Shown here: piece by piece, positions 23,987-61,793 of the stretch
How positions within the stretch are numbered: position 1 is the first letter of the stretch
How the letters are laid out: each line of letters begins with the position of its first letter
NCBI RefSeq assembly: GCF_000189635.1
Contig: NW_002476334.1
Span: 186,001-250,000, forward strand
Reading direction: 5' to 3'
DNA length: 64,000 nucleotides
Source: Tetrahymena thermophila SB210
Taxonomy: Eukaryota > Ciliophora > Oligohymenophorea > Hymenostomatida > Tetrahymenidae
Notes under the pieces: generated by a model
The model's database searches: none
Told to the model about the DNA's origin: nothing
Seen by the model: the letters and a program-made list of their open reading frames with translations, nothing else
Program-made: the position numbers and the translations under genes

Positions 23987-24841
23987 TCAATATTCTTTAA
24001 AAAGTATATCAGGAGATTGATCATTGTATTTAAAAGGTTATACTGATAAATCGTCAATAAGTTATTAAAATGTTTTTTCTACTTCTTAAACCTTCTAAGC
24101 AAATTCAGGATCTTCTCTCCTGTATTATATAGTAATTTTATCAAATGTTTCTCTAGGAGAGCCTGGACATTAATCCAATCCTTCATTTATCAGAAGCTCT
24201 CTTTTAGTTTCAGGTATCTATAATTCCCTATTCTTTTTAAAGAATTTTGGGTTTTCTAATTTCATCTCTACTTCTCCTTCTTCTTTCAATTCCTAAAATG
24301 CCTTTATATATTTTTTAGCTACTATCTTAAAGAACTTAGTATGGATATTATAAATCTTTTCTTTAGAAAATTTATTCAATACACTTTGATCAACATCCAT
24401 ATTTGGAGGAATTCCTTGACATGAATTTGAAAATATCTCTTCTATCTCAGTACTAATTTAATACAATTAAGAATCGTTAACAAAGTCAATTTCTACAGCA
24501 TGATTAAAGTCTTCTAAGCTAATTTCAAATTTTGCACACAAAAGTTTCTTGATGTTTTCTACATAAGCTCTTGCAATTTCAGCTATATAATCATCGAATG
24601 ATAAATTTGGTGGTAAAGAGGCACCTAAATCAAGCTATTTAAGCAATCTAACTCTTGTTTCTATGATCTGTAAAGAAATGTTGAACATCTACTTCTTTAG
24701 CTCTTTACATACATTGATAATAACCTATCTTGGAACTTTATAAGTTACTGGTTGTTCTTATTTAATATAAAAATATGCAAACAAGCCTCCTAATGCTAAG
24801 GCTGCTCCTCCAGCTATTAATCCTAATTTTGATTTCTCCAT
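23987..24841 (-). CDS. single-pass membrane protein, unknown function
   Basis: A single exon of 284 codons, ATG at 24841 to TGA at 23987. Residues 5-27 form one Gly/Ala/Leu-rich transmembrane helix (LGLIAGGAALALGG), probably a signal anchor with the bulk of the protein on one side. The soluble part (30-284) is predicted mostly helical, rich in Lys/Glu, with no motif I recognise. No start further upstream is in frame. It lies head to head with the TPR-protein gene across 959 bp and downstream of the channel gene on the same strand. Confidence 0.75.
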
Positions 24842-25800
24842 TTTTCTAAATAATTTTTTGATAGTAGTCTTTTAATTTGAAAATTAATTTGTTCTAAAAC
24901 TTTCTAAATCAAGATATAAATAAAAACCTTAAACTAGAAAGTGATAGATATATAGTCAGATAAACAATCTAGGTATTTCCTGATATTAGAACTTAGAAAT
25001 ATTTAAAATGATTAAATAAAATCTGATACCTTTTTTTTATCTATATATTCTAATAAATATTCTATTTTAAGTAAAAAACTAAAACTCCTTCAATTGAGCT
25101 ATTTCTATGCAAATCTGTAATAAGAGATTTCAGTACTGATTATAGTTTTATTTCAGTATTTATTTAAAAAATTCAAGATGTTAATCTTTCAAAAACTTAA
25201 GTAGCTTAATAATTTATCTTTATTTCAATCTTAAGATTTAACTAAAATATTTATTATATTTTAAATCTGAATGTCATAAAACAAATTATATAAAGATGAA
25301 AATTATAACAAATAAGATTTGTTAGACTAGTTTTAGCTATTATTTTAGAAAATTTAATCTTTATATTTGAAATAAGCAAAAAAATTTAGACATATAACAT
25401 ATAATTTAATTATTATAAATATTATAAATTAGCTATTATTATGTATTAAAATTAGAATAAAAGAGTTAACTAAATTAAAAAACATATAATTTAAATATCA
25501 TTCAAATGGACCTAAAAATTTAAATGGAACTTTGAAAACACCAAAAAAATTGATCTCATCAAGCTATTTGTCAAGAAAATAGCGAGAATTGAATAATTAA
25601 CTATTTAATTTGCTTTGGTCTATATTGATTGAATAATCTTAAAAAATTAATACAATTTGAAATACAATCAACTTTATTCAAAAAATTTTAAATAAAAAAC
25701 AGGTTTTTAAACATATTTATAAATTATAAAAGTAGCAGTAGAATAAATAAAAAAATACTATTTTCAATATATTGATTGGATCAAAATATTTTTCGTTAAG
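24842..25800. promoter_or_regulatory. divergent intergenic region (shared promoter area)
   Basis: Separates a minus-strand membrane-protein gene and the plus-strand TPR gene, so both promoters must lie here. Sequence is AT-rich; no specific element recognised. Confidence 0.4.
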
Positions 25801-38628: not shown

Positions 38629-40143
38629 TCAAAGACAAAATACACTTAATATTTTTGGAAGTACAGTTCCCTGTAAAGGCTCAGCTTAGTATCTTTCTCC
38701 GTCTATAGAATATAAACCACTTTTACTTGGATTTATAGGTTCAATTCTAATTGATCTTACTTTTTAATATTTGAGGTCATATCCTTTGGCAACAGTTTAT
38801 TTTTCTTTATCAAAAAATGAGCCATTATCTAGAGCAAGGGCAGTTTTAATCATTTAAAATCTGCTTTATTCATTAGTTAAATAAATTAAATCAAATAGGC
38901 CATCGTCAACAACTGCAAGTGGGAAACTCTGGTATTGTTCTGAAACCCAAGGAAGATTGCTTAAATAGAAGAAAGTAAATAGCTAATTCTTTTCTATTTT
39001 ATACTTAGACAAATCTTATTCAGAGATTTGTTAGTTGATTTCTGGTAAATTTAAATCAGAAGAGTTAGAGAAGAGTATGTTTGCAGCATATTTATTTAGG
39101 AACATCAAACGCCAAAATCCATAAACTTCAAAACGTGTTTCTCCTAAGAATCGGAGACTCTCACTTCCCAAGTCTAAATCAGAAACAAAGGTCCAGCTTA
39201 AACTTAAGAATGAGTATAATCTTTTAGAAAGTTGGAAAGGGTGAGTGCTCTTATTAAAAATATTTTCTCTTTCAAATTCAATTAAATCAATCTTTTTTGT
39301 TTGATTCTTAATTATAATGAATGCAGCACATTCGGGAGTGTTATATTCTCCAGAAATATTGCACATTGTTGTTGGTAGGGCATTTCCACTTCCTCCATGG
39401 ATACCTCCGATAGGCATTTATAGGCACTACTCGCGATCTGACCTTAGTAAAAGAGCATTTACAATTTCATGAGGAGTTCCGTCGCCACTAACGCTTACTA
39501 TTCCATAGTAAGAGAAGAGTTTTTCTGAAGATATTTCATATAAATAATCGAAGCAATGGAGGCGATAGAGGGTTTCTACTACATGATAGCTATGTCCTGA
39601 AATTTCAAAGAGATCTTTTACTCTATTAAATACTTATTAAGCTTATCCTTTCCCGCTATGAGGGTTAACAAAAATTAGCAATTCCTTTTGAACTCTATTG
39701 TTACTTACAATGTTTATGAACAAGCTTGTTTCTTTTTACTAAGAGAATTCCTAAATGATGTATTTTACTTCTTACAAATCTATTGATTTAACTTCTCCAG
39801 TTGGTAATACTTGTTCTACGTTTTCTGCTTAATTGACTGTATTGAAAGGAAAAACTTCTTTGAATCTATTTTCTATTTTCTTAAACATTCTTTTTTGAAC
39901 TCTTTTAGGGAACGAAATTATGTCAATTTTCTTATTTTATACAACTGCTCCAAGAAGATCTCTCCATTAAATTCCTTCGCTTCTTCCATCCTAATATTCG
40001 AATCTAACAAATGAATTAAACCCTTAAGAGCTAATTAAGCAAACATCTACTTTAACACCTTTTTGATCTTGTAACCTAAAAGTGTAGAGGATAGTATCCT
40101 ATGCATTACTCTTTTATTCTTCTTACTATATCTACATTTCCAT
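38629..40143 (-). CDS. sphingosine kinase (DAGK-type lipid kinase)
   Basis: A single exon of 504 codons, ATG at 40143 to TGA at 38629. Residues about 150-175 hold the start of the catalytic domain (LLIFVNPHSGKG). The nucleotide loop is SGDGTPHEIVNAL (G220-D-G222). GGSGNA at 250-255 corresponds to the family's GGSGNA glycine-rich loop. DLDLGSESLRFLGETRF matches the sphingosine-recognition region. VDDGLFDLIYL and a final DGE (SIDGE) complete the fold. It phosphorylates sphingoid bases to sphingosine-1-phosphate, or a ciliate equivalent, using ATP. The N-terminal 130 residues look like the PH-like leader seen in plant and protist enzymes. Length lies between human SPHK1 and SPHK2. Divergent from the phosphatase gene. 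Confidence 0.9.
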
Positions 40144-41496
40144 CTTTACTTACTACTTTTAACTTTATTTTATGATTTAATCAAGATTGTCTTTTATTAT
40201 AAAAAATTTTGTTCAAAACTACAAATTTTAAAACAAGGCATATAAAAATCTAATTACATATCTGCGTGATAATTTTTGAAATAAACCAAAATCATATCTA
40301 ATATTATTTTTTGTTGAATTTTGTTATCCAATAATTTTATTTACTTTTTTTCTTTGCAATAAAAAAAATATTTTATCTAATTATGTTTATTTTTTGCAAA
40401 ATAATGAAATAATTTAATCATTTTATTTTAAGATAAATGAAGTCAAAAGAAAATAATTTTTATGATCTCTCTTGTAATTAATTGAACCTTAATTCTAATT
40501 TAAAGATTTATTAAGTGATAATAATATTTCAAAAATAAAAAATATTTTTTTATAAAAGCATTAAAATTTTTTATAAATTAATTACATATTTGATTAATAT
40601 TTTTGGAATTATCTTAAATCATATCATCTCATAATATTATTTGTTGAATTTGGTTTTCAAATAAATTTATTTATTCTCTTTTGTAATAAAAAATATTTTA
40701 TTTATTGCAAAAGTTGTGAAATTATTTTAATTTCTGGTAAATGAAATCAAAAGAAAAATATTTTATTGTGTTATTTTAAAATTAATTGGGTCTCTTCTTT
40801 TTATAAATTTAATATTTTTAGAATTAATTACAAAAAAAAAAAGAATGTTTGAAAATCTAAATATTTATTTTTCCAGTTAATCTTGATTAAATATTAATGA
40901 AAAATAGATAAAATATTAAATTGATGAATAAATAAATAAAAGTGCTTTGTTTATAAATTTATTTCTGCAAAAAAAAAATTTGATAGGTATCTAAACGATT
41001 GATAATTATTTGTTATTAATAAATTATAATTCAAGAAGAAGGAAAATTGGATGATTAAATTTTTATTACTTTTCCTACTGAATGCCCATCTAATTAATAA
41101 AAAATAAGATTAATTCCGCGATAACATTGCTATTAAAAAAATTTGTTATAGCTCGTTTGTTAGTTTTTTCGCGTGTATAATTAAATCTAACAACAAAATT
41201 TGCATTACAAATGATAAACAAAATCAAATTAAGATGAAAGGTATTAATTAAGGTTAATTATAATCACATTAAATAATACTATTTACAAAATTAAATATTT
41301 ATAATTGATAATTAAAATTTGTAAAAAATATATTTTTGCTAAAAAAGGATTAAAAAACAAGCAGCATCTTACAGCAAACACTACGCACCTTCCTATCTAC
41401 ATTTACTACGACTTTAGTACCTCTACAAAGCACCATCTAGCAAAATAGAAATTAAAAAAAAATTAAAGCATAGCAAATTTAGTAAATAGTATAGCA
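40144..41496. promoter_or_regulatory. divergent intergenic region (two promoters)
   Basis: 1.35 kb between sphingosine kinase (-) and the dual-specificity phosphatase (+). It must contain both promoters. Very AT-rich to about 41340, then C-rich short repeats of CTAC/CACC type just before the phosphatase start. No specific element recognised. Confidence 0.4.
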
Positions 41497-42993
41497 ATGA
41501 GTTATTTTTCTTATAAATCTAGATAATAGCAATACGCATATCAATAAGCTGCTTGGTAAGCTTACCTCAGAATGGATCCAATGAATTGTATTATTGATCC
41601 TTAAGGTTCAAAAGGTGGACTTTATTTAGGTAATGTGGATGCAGCCTAAAATGTAGACATGCTTCGCCGTCATAACATCGGAGCTGTGCTTACTGTCGCT
41701 GCTCGTACTGGCCTAAAATATGACAAAAGCCACAATATTAACCATCACATAGTAAATGCTGATGATGTTGAGTCCTATGATTTAAGCAGACACTTTCCTA
41801 CTTTACTAGATTTTATCGAATAGCATATTTAGCATACAAACGTTCTTGTCCACTGCTTCGCTGGAGTTTCCAGAAGCTCAACTACTGTCATTGCATATCT
41901 CATGAAAACTAATAATTGGAGTTATGAGAAGAGCTTATTTTATTGTAAATCAAGAAGAAAAGTAACAAATCCTAATCCTGGTTTTATACGTTAACTAATG
42001 TCCTTCGAAAGAAGATTATAAGAAAAGCAAAATGCCTAAATTAGATAGCAAGAATAAGGTCTAGGTCTTACCCAAAGCACATTTTATCATGACCGTAATC
42101 CAGTAAGAGTTTTGCCATAATCTTCTCATTCTAATAGAAATGAAAATGTTCTTCTTTATGATAATACTTCACCCTCTTAAAACGGTAAAAAAATGTTGAG
42201 TATGACTTTGAACTCTTTCAAGCCCAGTAATAATGAGCATAGTACTCCGAACAACAGAGGTTATGGTACAACATCCTTAGTACAGACAGATTAGTTAAGC
42301 ACCACTAAAAGTAATTTCCATGATCAGACTTTATAAAGATCTTCAGTTAAGTAGGGATCTTATGCAGATTAGATAAGAAGTCAAAGTTAGCAAGCAAACC
42401 GTATTACAGACAACTCTTCTCACTTTGGAGGTAGCAATAAAGCAAATTAAGCAGATTTAAACAGTCATCTAAATCCATATTAGAGTGCTCAAAAAACTTC
42501 TTACAATGAATCAAAATCATCAGTTTTTGGAAATAATATCAACTTAAGATAAAATGACAGAAGTTCCTATAAAGATAGAAGTACATCATCATAACCCATA
42601 TACTCTTAGCAAGTACATCCCTCTGGCTATGAGTTAGGAGGAGAACAAAGAGGTTATGAAAGAGGTTCATCTGTCAGATCATCAAACATATACTAAAATC
42701 TTTAAAGTAATAGTCATTATTAAAACTAGCAAAATTTCGCAAGTTCTCTAAGAAATAGTTATCAAAAAGCCCCTTCTTATGCTGTGACCCAATAAACTCC
42801 AAAGACAATTTATGGCTCTAACTATATAAGTTATAACAAACCTGACAATAGACCATATCAAATCTATAACAATTAATTGACTCCTTAATCAGTTTATTCC
42901 TCTTCTTATGGAGTAGCTTAAAAAGCAGCAGGTTATAATCCCAAATACTATCCAACAAGAAGAGCTTTATTTAGCGATAGACCTTTGTTTTGA
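41497..42993 (+). CDS. dual-specificity protein phosphatase with Q/S/Y-rich tail
   Basis: A single exon of 498 codons. Residues about 35-170 are a DSP catalytic domain. It starts with GGLYLGNVDAAQN, has the NADDVESYDLS loop supplying the general-acid Asp at about 88-89, and the signature H119-C120-FAGVS-R126-SS, where C120 is the nucleophile. It then has the usual NPNPGF segment. The remaining 320 residues are Ser/Gln/Asn/Tyr-rich and disordered, with no domain. DSPs remove phosphate from Tyr and Ser/Thr, classically on MAP kinases; the substrate here is unknown. All catalytic residues are intact. Confidence 0.92.
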
Positions 42994-46156: not shown

Positions 46157-48208
46157 TCAGAATTTTGATTATTCTCCTTTGTAGTCTTTAGCATATGCGT
46201 AAGTAAAATAACCAATTATGATTAATGCTACACATAAAAGTGGGATACCGATTTCTTTTCTATAGAATAACCAAGCAATACTAATGACCAGTATTGTTAA
46301 AGGGACAGCAATTAAAAATCCGACTAAACCACAAATGAAGCTACCTAGAGCTCCTAAGAATCTACCTACTAATGGGAACCAATATAATAAGGTATATACT
46401 GGTGAAAGCATGAAATAAACACCGAGCATGAAACATAAGAAACCTAAGAATCTCATTAACCAGGTCTTCAATTCATAGCTTGAAAGTTACTCTTAGAAAA
46501 TAACTTTCTTTTTAACTTTTTATTCCTTAACCCAATTAATTTCACTAATAGGAGCATTAATAATTTCACAAACTTTACATATTGCAGAGCAACAAAAACA
46601 GCATCCATTACCATCTTGTAAAGCTTCATCGTCATTTAAATCTTTTTTTTATTTACTTTCTTCAGGAGAGAATGTTTCAATACATCCTTAAGCTTATTAG
46701 CCAATTACAGTTATCTCACCACATGGAATTTTAGTAAATTTGACACGGAAATCACCAGCTGTAGCAGTAGTGTTTACATTTTTCTTAAAGTAAATGTAAC
46801 CATCTTAGAAAAGGATAGTTTTTTAACCCCAAGAATTGTTGTTTTAAGAAGGAGCAGGATAGTATCCTTATTGATTAGGATAACCATCAGTCATGGGATT
46901 GACAGGAGATACATTTGATTAATTTTGGCTAGCACTTTGCTAAACTATAGGATTAGAAGAAAGTTAATAATTACCTTTAGCAGCTAATTCTTGAAGGATA
47001 GGAAGATCTACATTAACTGGTTCATATTTTGAGCACTTTTTCTTTTGAATTTCAGTTAAATAAAAAGCACCATAGTTAACTGTAGGAGCATACATTTCTT
47101 ATTCGTTATAAAGCCAGTCATTGTTATTATTTTCATGCCCTATTTATTAATTACAATAAATCAATTAATTTATTTAAATTTAAAAAGCATAATAATAATT
47201 TTGTAAAAACGCAATTATTTCTAGTTTAAATAATATATCCGTTTTTATTTAATTAGCACAGACTGACAGATAAATTATTTATTCTAAATAAATTTTCTCT
47301 AGGCTATTTAAAATGCTTTCAAATAAATGATAAAATAATTCATTTATTTTATTTTTTTTATAATTGTCAGTTTTTTATTCAATATTCTAAATATTTTATA
47401 TTGTTTTATTGTTGACTTTAATATAAAATATCAACATATTTATTAATAAAGAATAGTTTACCAAACTCTTCAACAAAGGTTCTGCTTTCAATAAAGCTAT
47501 CTTTCCAACTTAAAGTATATGTGTAATAAACTTCATCCTCACTATTGTTAATTCTACGTGTATGGCGATCTTATACCCATTAGTACATTTCGCATTTTCT
47601 GTACAGTTTAATACAATTTTAAACTTAGATATTAAAGGCAGGATCTTAAATTACGTCAAAAGTAGTAGTATCACCATTGACGCAAACTAGTTTTCCCTCA
47701 TTTTAAGAATCGACCATTGTTGGCTCTACTTTAATGCATTATTTAAGATACTTTCTCAAGAATGTTTTTGTATAGGCATATCCTTTTTCGTTGAACCATA
47801 AGCATGGGAAACCAGCAAAAAATAATAGAGCTCCGATAACCATATCACCTAAAACAGAATCACCTCTTTGTTCTATTCTTTTTGTTTTGTGTGATGCAGC
47901 AATTGTAGTCTAAGCTAGAGAAGGGTTAGTCTCTGTTTAATGAAACTTCTTTCTTGAAGAAAATCTATATTTTTTTTAGATTCCGATTAAATTTTATGTG
48001 ATAATTCTAATTCATTAATATACCTTTCTTTTGAATAAGAAGAAGAATGCTTAAGGGATTTCTCATGAGAGCTGCTGTGTTAGATCTACTTTTTAAGAGT
48101 TTCTGAAGAATCCAAAGATTATAGTTCAATCTGGCTTTTATTTTGCTTCGAAGAAACAAGAGCAAAGCCTACGAAAAACAAAATAAATAAAATATAATTT
48201 CCTCTCAT
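46157..48208 (-). CDS. TMEM43: TMEM43 (LUMA) family membrane protein
   Basis: Three exons (48208-48024, 47964-47462, 47139-46157), phases 2 and 1, introns 59 and 322 nt, 556 residues. An N-terminal signal-like helix and Ser/His-rich stretch lead to GDSVLGDMVIGALLFFAGFPCLWFNE, which matches the TMEM43 first membrane segment and W-N-E motif. EMYQW and the YTYTLSW strand also match. The lumenal domain carries GDFRVKF. The last about 105 residues hold the C-terminal transmembrane helices (RFLGFLCFMLGVYFM to IAWLFYRKE). TMEM43 sits in the inner nuclear membrane/ER in animals. The protein is longer than human TMEM43 (400 aa) because of a Gln/Asn/Pro-rich insert and a Cys-rich block (GCCFCCSAICKVC) before the C-terminal helices. 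Confidence 0.9.
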
Positions 48209-48847: not shown

Positions 48848-50684
48848 TCATATCCTTAATTTTTTGTAAAAAATAGAGGGAATTTTGGTGATTGATTTCT
48901 CTAACATTTTCTTTGCCTTCATATCACTAAGCCTATTTTAACTAAATAAAATTTTAATAAAAATATAATTATATTTATTTACCTAAAATTGAGATTTAGG
49001 TAAGAGACATGATTTAAACACTAAATTCCTCCAATAATTTCGTTCACTCCTACATTTCCTATGTTATTTTTCCTTTTTTTATTAAATTGAGCTAAAGATT
49101 TAAATTTAATAATGAAGTACTGTAATGATATTGAAACAGTTTTTAATAATTCGAGCTTTTTAATAGCATCAGATATTGAAGTTGCTCCATCTTGCATAAT
49201 TCCATTATTGCTTAGTATTTATTTTTTAAATTTTTATTAAAAATTTTATAATAAATTTAACTCTACTTTAAATAAAGATGCAAATGTTCAAGCTAGACAG
49301 CATAAGAAAACCCTTTGCATAAATTAATAATATTTTCTTAGCCTAGTTAGTTGTTGCTTTTTAAAAAAATGAATAAAATATTTTTGTTTGATTTATATTA
49401 AATCATACTTCAATAGTAAGGATAAGTTTTTCAAACTGCTGTATGATTTTAAGAACTCAACTAAGCATTTCACTCCTTCCCCTTGCACTTTGTTATCACT
49501 AAAGTAATTTTTGTTTAATTTAACAACAAATACTACAAATTAATTTTTATAATTTACTTTAAATTTAAGATTAAGGTTTGTAGATTTGCTATGTGTTTAA
49601 TTCCTACTGTAAAATAATTTACTCCTTTGCATTCAATTTCAGTACGGCTATTTATATTTTTATTTTAACTTTATTCATCCTGTTTATAATATCAATTAAA
49701 TTACTTTAGTTAAAAGGAAAGATATTCTAAGTCACAAAACCTTTCTATTAATTTACTAAGATGTTATGCTCCTTCATTACCTATCTTGTTATTGCTTTAA
49801 AAAATCTTTTAATAAAATAACATGATGATATAAAAAAATAGCTTTACAATAAATCAATGGTAAAATTGGTAATACTTTTGATATCTTTGAATTATTCTTA
49901 TATATATTTAACTCCTTGTTTTGTTATGTCGTTCTTGCTATAAATTATTATATTAATAAATTTAATGAATTAATAATAATATATATTACCCTAAATTTAA
50001 ATTTAAATTTATTATTTTTTAGCAGTGATTAATTGCTTTAGAAATTTATTCTACTCCTTCATTACTCAAGTTTGTTTGACTATTAAATAAAAATAAGTAA
50101 GAACGGCTTGATAAAAATAATTTAAGGAAATTACAATAAATCTAATTCTAACTTTTCTACTTCCTCTAAACTCTAAATTCCAGTTGATAGAGCTTTAAAT
50201 CCGTCTAAACCGAAGTTATTATGACTTTTGTATATAATTTATATTTTTAATTATTCATTTTTACTTATATTTACTCAAGTTAGATAAAGATATCTTTAGT
50301 ATCCTTAAATGATTTTAATACTTCTCCTATGACTGCTAGATCAGCATCAACTATACCTTTATTTCTTTTATATGCGTATTAAATAAAAAAGCAGATAAGT
50401 GTTTAATTTTTACCTTATGACTATGCTTAATTTAGCTATTAACTCCTTTTCTATACTTTTGATTGCTTATTCAAGCTTGTTGTATACTTACTTTTCAGAT
50501 GTAGATATGGTTAAAGCTATTCTCACCAAAGGTTACTTTGTTAAATTAACAAGTGATTCTACATCTTAGATACTGGAAATATTATGATTTATTAAAGCTG
50601 ATTTATTTTTAAATTCTTTTTATTTATTGAAAATACTTAAAAAAGTTTACTGAACTTTTAGCTTTTTAAAATATCTTTGACCAT
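48848..50684 (-). CDS. leucine-rich-repeat protein, one repeat per 90-nt exon
   Basis: Thirteen exons, 400 residues. Exon 1 is 50684-50651 and exon 2 is 50597-50414. Ten exons of exactly 90 nt follow: 50364-50275, 50224-50135, 50079-49990, 49937-49848, 49794-49705, 49647-49558, 49498-49409, 49356-49267, 49210-49121 and 49072-48983. The last exon is 48932-48848. All introns from the second on are phase 2 and 48-59 nt long. Each 90-nt exon encodes one 30-residue ribonuclease-inhibitor-type LRR, running from the Asn ladder position (N-x-I/L-x-x-x-G) through a helix to the L-x-x-L-x-L strand, and the intron always falls right after that strand. No other domain is seen. Such LRR proteins bind other proteins; partner unknown. 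Confidence 0.9.
48983..50364 (-). repeat. array of ten 90-nt LRR exons
   Basis: A tandem array of exon-intron units, ten in all, with period about 138-149 bp (90-nt exon plus 48-59-nt intron). Each exon begins with the last base of a codon and ends with the first two bases of the next, so any unit can be added or removed without changing frame. Introns share no obvious sequence beyond splice sites and AT-richness. Confidence 0.9.
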
Positions 50685-60453: not shown

Positions 60454-61793
60454 ATAAAATTATGAGTATTTTTTTTGGTTTAAATTGAAAAGATTAATTT
60501 TTGCTAAATTTTCTAATATTTATAACTTGGTCAATATGTAAATAATATTTAAGGTTCATTCGATATAATTAAATCTCATCTTTTAAATAAATAAAAACTA
60601 AATTATTAATTTGTTTAATTGATTAAAAATCATAAATTTTTATTATTAAAATAAACTTAATCATATAAGTATTTAACAAAACATTTTTGTCTTAGTTATT
60701 TATCAAGTAAATAAGTAATTGTAAAATAAAATTATAAATATTATAAAAATAATTTCAAAATATAATAATAAATTTTTTTTTAATTTTATTTAAACGAAAA
60801 TGTATATTATCATAAAAAGCTACTGCAATTGTAATTATTACCTATCTTTGTTAAATAGCTTAGAATATAACAAAATAATCTTTAAATTTCACAAATGATT
60901 CAAAAAATTACTTTTTTAATAAAAAAAAACTAAATAAAGTGAACTATCTTATTAATGATAATAATTATAAATTAATATATTTTTATATTTTAAGACTTTT
61001 AAATGAAATTACACATAAACCATCATAAAACATTACTTAGTAATAAATTGGGATTAAATCAATTTCATATTTATTCTTTAATAACTTAAATAATTAATAT
61101 ACATTTTTATTTTAAAAAGTTTAAAATATAACAAAATAATCTTTAAATTTCACAAAAATTCAATAAATTACATCTTTTAAATCAAACAAAAACTATATAA
61201 AGTGAATTATCTTATTAATGATAAATAATTATTATATTAATATTTTTTTATATTTTAAAACTTTTAAATCAAAATATACATCCACCATGATTAGATTAAT
61301 TTCATATTTATTATTTAATATTTATTTTTTAATTAAATATTTTAAGGTATTTATTTAATAGATTAAAATATAACAAAATAATCTTTAAATTTCACAAAAT
61401 ATTCAATAAATTACTTTTTTAAATCAAAAAAAACTAAATAAAGAGAACTATCTTATTAATGATAATAATTATAAATTAATATATTTTTATATTTTAAGAC
61501 TTTTAAATGAAAATATACATCCACTTTCATAAAATATTACTTAGTAATAAATTGATTTAAGATTAATTTCTTATTTATTCTTTAAATACTTAAATAGTTA
61601 ATATCTATTTTTTATATTAAATATTTTAAGTTAATGAAAAGACTGTTAGTGTATTTATTTTTATAGGTTTTTTTGCATAAGTTGCAAATTTATTTGATCT
61701 ATTTTAATTAAGCTGAGTGTATTATGTCATTTATTTTTAATATTTTTAATTATTGTATATAGAAATGAATTAATTATATTTAACTAATAGTTT
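60454..61793. other. convergent intergenic region with a tandem repeat
   Basis: Between the Q/N-rich gene (+) and the acidic coiled-coil gene (-). About 60862-61633 is a threefold tandem repeat listed separately; the rest is plain AT-rich spacer. Confidence 0.6.
60862..61633 (+). repeat. three tandem copies of a ~240-270-bp non-coding unit
   Basis: Units start at about 60862, 61122 and 61364. Each opens with the shared block ATATAACAAAATAATCTTTA followed by AATTTCACAAA, then a run of A, ACTATCTTATTAATGATAA, TTTTTATATTTTAA, ACTTTTAAAT and ends in TTTATTCTTTAA-like sequence. Copies 1 and 3 are closest to each other (both contain ATTACTTAGTAATAAATTG), while copy 2 lacks part of that segment. 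No conserved reading frame. Confidence 0.88.

Follow-up and report, generated by a model that had tools for sequence, protein, structure and literature searches.

The minus-strand gene at positions 48848..50684 of a 64,000-nucleotide stretch of Tetrahymena thermophila DNA (hereafter the window) is, with a probability of about 0.93, an intact ribonuclease-inhibitor-like leucine-rich repeat (LRR) gene of the published class with 90-bp exons, similar to group II of that class and grown by duplication of an exon-intron unit. The contig most likely represents the somatic genome of the species. Telomerase exons located with PF12009 and translated in the ciliate code are identical to the T. thermophila chain 6d6v_A of the PDB over 102 and 135 residues; the few mismatches fall at the ends of the two aligned blocks, where the frame probably enters introns. 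For the gene class, growth by unit duplication has good support, both from young arrays in the same genome and from the study of Xiong et al. 2019 (PLoS Biol, PMC6564038). The present calculation, made independently from the raw sequence, confirms a known and striking mode of gene building by exon-intron unit duplication in a ciliate. The preliminary description of this DNA knew of no report of such a design in a ciliate; the idea that there is none is contradicted by PMC6564038, which describes it in ten Tetrahymena species, and the one-exon-per-repeat LRR design in a ciliate is therefore already known, genome-wide figures for it having been published in 2019.

Gene model and exon lengths

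The gene runs from the ATG at 50684 to the TGA at 48850-48848 in the ciliate code, in which TGA is the sole stop. Its exons were delineated with a Viterbi gene model that allows GT-AG introns of 38-400 nt with hand-set splice scores, leaves exon length unscored, and uses a crude codon model trained on 18 long open frames within the window. In the best path, exon 2 (184 nt) is followed by eight exons of exactly 90 nt and one of 228 nt, and the introns are in phase 2 from exon 2 onward. The 228-nt exon resolves as 90 + 48 + 90. The model reads through intron 11 (49073..49120, 48 nt, phase 2) because its length is a multiple of three and in-frame TGA is absent. This intron starts with GTAC, ends with AAAG, has a G+C content of 17% and scores as non-coding, with a coding log-odds of -3.7 against +11.3 and +10.7 in the adjoining exons; ten 90-nt exons are therefore the preferred reading. 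The corrected model comprises 13 exons and encodes, with predicted splicing, an LRR protein of 403 residues, to which retention of intron 11 would add 16. We also note that gene finders may fuse exons 11 and 12 across 49073-49120 into a 228-nt exon, and annotations may undercount 90-nt exons since a TGA-free intron whose length is a multiple of three can be read through.

Exon 1 (50651..50684, 34 nt), which carries the ATG, is separated by intron 1 (50598..50650, 53 nt, phase 1) from exon 2 (50414..50597), whose phase 2 end follows a strand motif, KLSIVI, that by eye resembles an LRR. Introns 2-12 are all predicted to be phase 2 in the final model, and the ten 90-nt exons between them are all of phase 2-2. 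In the direction of transcription, intron 2 (50365..50413, 49 nt) leads to exon 3 (50275..50364), intron 3 (50225..50274, 50 nt) to exon 4 (50135..50224), intron 4 (50080..50134, 55 nt) to exon 5 (49990..50079), intron 5 (49938..49989, 52 nt) to exon 6 (49848..49937), and intron 6 (49795..49847, 53 nt) to exon 7 (49705..49794). Intron 7 (49648..49704, 57 nt), whose length is also a multiple of three and which contains an in-frame TGA, is followed by exon 8 (49558..49647), intron 8 (49499..49557, 59 nt), exon 9 (49409..49498), intron 9 (49357..49408, 52 nt), exon 10 (49267..49356) and intron 10 (49211..49266, 56 nt). Exons 3-10 come from both the gene model and the chain search described below; exons 11 (49121..49210) and 12 (48983..49072), fused with intron 11 in the free model, are taken from the chain search. 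With the correction at intron 11 the two methods agree that exons 3-12 are each exactly 90 nt long, as had been proposed for this gene.

The model is least secure at its 3' end, because the second and third Viterbi paths (scores 87.9 and 84.0, compared with 93.6 for the best) terminate differently while keeping exons 1-11 of the best-path model. Intron 12 (48942..48982, phase 2) measures 41 nt when the repeat register is kept, and an acceptor 9 nt further downstream would lengthen it to 50 nt, remove three residues and leave the frame unchanged. The range of 48-59 nt given earlier for the introns thus holds with the alternative acceptor and fails with the register kept. Exon 13 (48848..48941, 94 nt) starts in phase 2 and in repeat register (QNRLSD, by eye), and encodes a half repeat and the TGA.

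A code with TGA as the only stop makes open stretches common, and one may ask whether AT-rich DNA, poor in stops and rich in GT/AG pairs, produces the exon regularity as an artefact. The chain search, which requires AG, 90 nt open in phase 2 and GTA, with gaps of 38-120 nt, independently recovers all ten 90-nt exons together. A grid of exon lengths of 60-150 nt in steps of three, combined with phase, gives 93 combinations on both strands of the window; the next-best chain among the 92 others has 3 members and occurs in three combinations. When the gene region was dinucleotide-shuffled 500 times, the maximum chain length was 0 in 96 shuffles, 1 in 374, 2 in 27 and 3 in 3. Raising the intron limit to 450 nt lets 90-nt chains with as many as 7 members form at the gene in both other phases, and at some 3-kb LRR loci chains built on other exon lengths have as many as 5. 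The off-phase chains arise because TGA alone acts as stop, and the phase 2 call accordingly rests on the LRR reading frame and not on openness alone. Given the chain of 10 at the shorter intron limit, the LRR motif that stays in register across the exons, and the G+C content of 27% in exons versus 13% in introns, the probability of an artefact is negligible.

Repeat register of the predicted protein

The ten exon peptides share the pattern xNxIxxxGVxxIxxxIKxxxxLxxLxLxL, and positions 4, 12, 16, 25, 27 and 29 of the 29-residue exon peptide are occupied by L, I, V, M or F in all ten exons. The exon border falls directly after the LxLxL motif and before the Asn that is commonly found there. The final model and the motif register thus bear out the view that the phase 2 introns sit at the same point of the LRR and that one exon equals one 30-residue repeat. 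Because the end of exon 2 and the start of exon 13 lie in repeat register, a part-repeat seems to flank the array on either side.

In a Pfam search of the 403-residue protein, LRR_6 matches with 30.1 bits (cut-off 23.4, E 3.9e-7); nothing else, NACHT and ROC-COR included, exceeds its cut-off. A search of PDB returns 18 distinct sequences at E <=0.001, among them the ribonuclease inhibitors 3tsr_E (E 4.4e-12) and 1dfj_I (3.6e-8) together with other LRR chains. Judged from these sequence matches, the predicted product is a ribonuclease-inhibitor-like LRR protein. The ten exon-coded repeats and the part-repeats at the ends might fold into a curved solenoid with another protein as its binding partner.

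History of the exon-intron unit

PMC6564038 reports ~72,000 90-bp exons across ten Tetrahymena species, with >96% of them flanked by phase 2 introns, and an S8 Fig legend gives RNA-seq support for an example gene. The study distinguishes group I, without 90-bp exons; group II, with 566 genes in T. thermophila, introns of ~56 bp (the background length) and units unmasked by repeat consensus sequences; and group III, with 934 genes, introns of ~257 bp and units that are alike. The gene in the window shares with group II the array of 90-bp exons, the flanking phase 2 introns and one 30-residue LRR per exon; in addition, its introns (41-59 nt) are near the background length and its units are no longer alike at the nucleotide level. 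It therefore looks like a gene of the older group II, a membership judged here by self-similarity whereas the authors' definition relies on masking by RepeatModeler consensus sequences, and it would be one of the 566. Exon length, phase and repeat register are common to group III as well. This is in contrast to the long introns and alike units of that group, compared with which the gene has short introns and a mean exon identity of 0.45.

Comparison of the ten exons with each other gives a mean identity of 0.454, above the codon-shuffled null of 0.317 (sd 0.007). The excess is found mainly at second codon positions (0.61), as expected from the conservation of hydrophobic residues. Third codon positions are at chance (0.36 versus 0.36 shuffled). 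The identity among introns is 0.61 versus 0.57 shuffled, a comparison that has no computed spread and includes the shared splice ends, and the intron alignment scores fall inside the shuffled range. A separate alignment of exons and introns, as had been suggested, therefore yields a signal in the exons as a whole, while third positions and introns lie at or barely above the shuffled level. This indicates that the units are old, and no clear trace of duplication is left in this gene.

Younger arrays are present elsewhere in the genome. A whole-genome protein search with six repeats as query gave 59 matches, 6 of which are the gene itself; of the remaining 53, 13 span at least 150 query residues in one frame. 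This search favours long one-frame matches, which makes it unusable for counting 90-nt arrays, and a genome family search, in which 150 of 280 candidates were scored, is likewise unfit for that purpose. Forty-three loci were scanned, and after exclusion of six of the gene itself and the telomerase locus, a 90-nt phase 2 chain longer than 2 was found in one (L019) of the 36 left, several of which overlap. Six further stretches (L044-L049) were chosen by eye from the family-search matches: L044 on two matches 350 bases apart, L045 on the L019 chain, and the others on weak hits. All six contain 90-nt chains, which gives no rate since the stretches were hand-picked. L045, like the gene in the window, has mostly short introns; its chain of 12 exons includes two gaps of 289 and 179 nt. 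The five long-intron arrays have 4 (L044), 6 (L046), 7 (L047), 10 (L048) and 5 (L049) LRR exons in the stretch examined; an 11th chain exon of L048 lacks the LRR motif and was rejected as a chance extension.

The long-intron arrays have the look of group III. In L044 and L049 the introns measure 253-260 nt, closer to the 257-bp intron peak that PMC6564038 reports for T. thermophila than to the 232 bp of T. malaccensis. The lengths in L046 (192-259 nt), L047 (170-316 nt) and L048 (mostly 274-276 nt, one of 407) differ from the 257-bp peak, so that intron length speaks for the species through L044 and L049. Units were compared in 10 of the 11 chain exons of L048 and 8 of the 12 of L045, and L047 was omitted (introns 170-316 nt). 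In L044, L046, L048 and L049, exons are on average 0.89-0.95 identical and introns 0.80-0.99, the lowest identity of a single intron pair in these four arrays being 0.64; the introns of L044 are 98-99% identical. Control chains of other exon lengths, with introns of up to 450 nt, reach 1, 4, 3, 2, 6 and 1 in L044 to L049, and the evidence for the short chains therefore rests more on LRR peptides and unit identity than on chain length. The likeness of both exons and introns in the four young arrays is direct evidence of duplicated exon-intron units.

The following history is consistent with this evidence at the level of the class. The ancestral unit would have paired a 90-nt exon, coding for one 30-residue repeat, with a phase 2 intron, and it would have multiplied in the germline through unequal exchange within and between such genes. 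Since the units begin and end at the same codon position, their gain or loss would have kept both frame and solenoid. Later, the introns would have shrunk to the ~50 nt usual in this genome, and silent sites and introns would have changed until no similarity could be recognized, with the hydrophobic core of the repeats kept. The authors of PMC6564038 propose that exons were shuffled by unequal crossing over, perhaps involving a LINE-like element, and that intron length goes through a cycle; the idea that repeat number changes through unequal exchange, put forward in the preliminary description, matches their proposal. Its suggestion of exon-intron unit duplication is supported for the class, by the four young arrays and PMC6564038, whereas the gene itself has lost the trace.

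That loss leaves room for an account in which selection on splicing, with a fixed exon size for the machinery, keeps the 90 nt without any history of unit duplication. The introns and third codon positions of the gene, taken alone, cannot separate history from constraint. Selection on exon size is nevertheless hard to reconcile with young arrays that are alike in their introns as well, beyond chance in L044, L046, L048 and L049, which points to unit duplication or conversion. PMC6564038 further reports that in non-LRR genes the introns before 90-bp exons show a mild phase 2 deficit (24%) and no excess. Taken together, these observations make selection on splicing very improbable as the sole cause. 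Exon regularity is not needed for the protein, as several LRR genes of this genome carry 30-residue repeats within a single intron-free frame.

The design could instead be kept for its use, with exon skipping yielding isoforms that differ in repeat number. All ten exons are symmetric (2-2) and any skip would preserve the frame, and splice variants are reported for related designs in other organisms. Brown algal ROCO genes (PMC11378527), for which alternative splicing is reported, resemble the gene in having one LRR per exon, a fixed exon length, phase 2 and exon shuffling; they differ in their 72-bp LRR exons and in their ROC-COR GTPase domains, where the gene has LRR_6 only. In vertebrate NLR genes such as NLRP3 (PMC6642158), ribonuclease-inhibitor-type LRRs are likewise encoded by frame-preserving exons of constant length whose borders recur at one point of the repeat, and a splice variant of human NLRP3 without exon 5 is described. 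The NLRP3 exons are of 171 bp and encode two repeats each (28 + 29 residues), and the gene in the window has no match to NACHT. As regards Tetrahymena, the terms "exon skipping" and "alternative splicing" are absent from the main text of PMC6564038, and a literature search on splicing variants in Tetrahymena returned no Tetrahymena title among the matches listed. Short introns would generally favour intron definition over exon skipping, and the history of unit duplication accounts for the symmetry without any use of it. Maintenance of the design for exon skipping is thus improbable, though less so than selection on exon size.

Intronless LRR arrays and surrounding sequence

Translations were read for eight LRR loci. 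L005, L006, L010 and L013 (G000 contigs C256, C112, C270 and C54) carry, within a single intron-free reading frame, LRRs of ~30 residues whose register matches that of the 90-nt exons. At one point in L006, motif hits are 92 residues apart although the register calls for 90. The spacing is mostly 31 residues in L014, 28 in L017 and irregular in L011. Twelve compared units of L013 have a mean nucleotide identity of 0.68. Such arrays could be copies of spliced LRR messages made by the LINE-like element that PMC6564038 links to these genes, in which case LRR genes would alternate between a form with one exon per repeat and an intronless one that keeps expanding by itself; we regard this as unlikely. 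In a simpler reading, the intronless arrays are old group I genes that predate intron gain, and group I may include such genes. The terms "intronless", "intron loss", "intron gain" and "retroposed" are absent from the main text of PMC6564038. In L005 (G000:C256, frame of match 24413-24940), the open frame upstream of the LRRs resembles, by eye, a protein kinase domain with an altered catalytic loop, HNNIKPNN.

Pfam gave no LRR match in any of 20 further open frames scanned in the window. The next long scanned open frame downstream of the gene, at 46160-47755 on the minus strand, belongs to the TMEM43 family (Pfam E 6.5e-47). A diacylglycerol kinase-like open frame at 38632-40212 on the minus strand lies near a dual specificity phosphatase open frame at 41215-42990 on the plus strand. 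The AT-rich DNA at 60847-61604 consists of nearly three tandem copies of a 239-242 nt unit.
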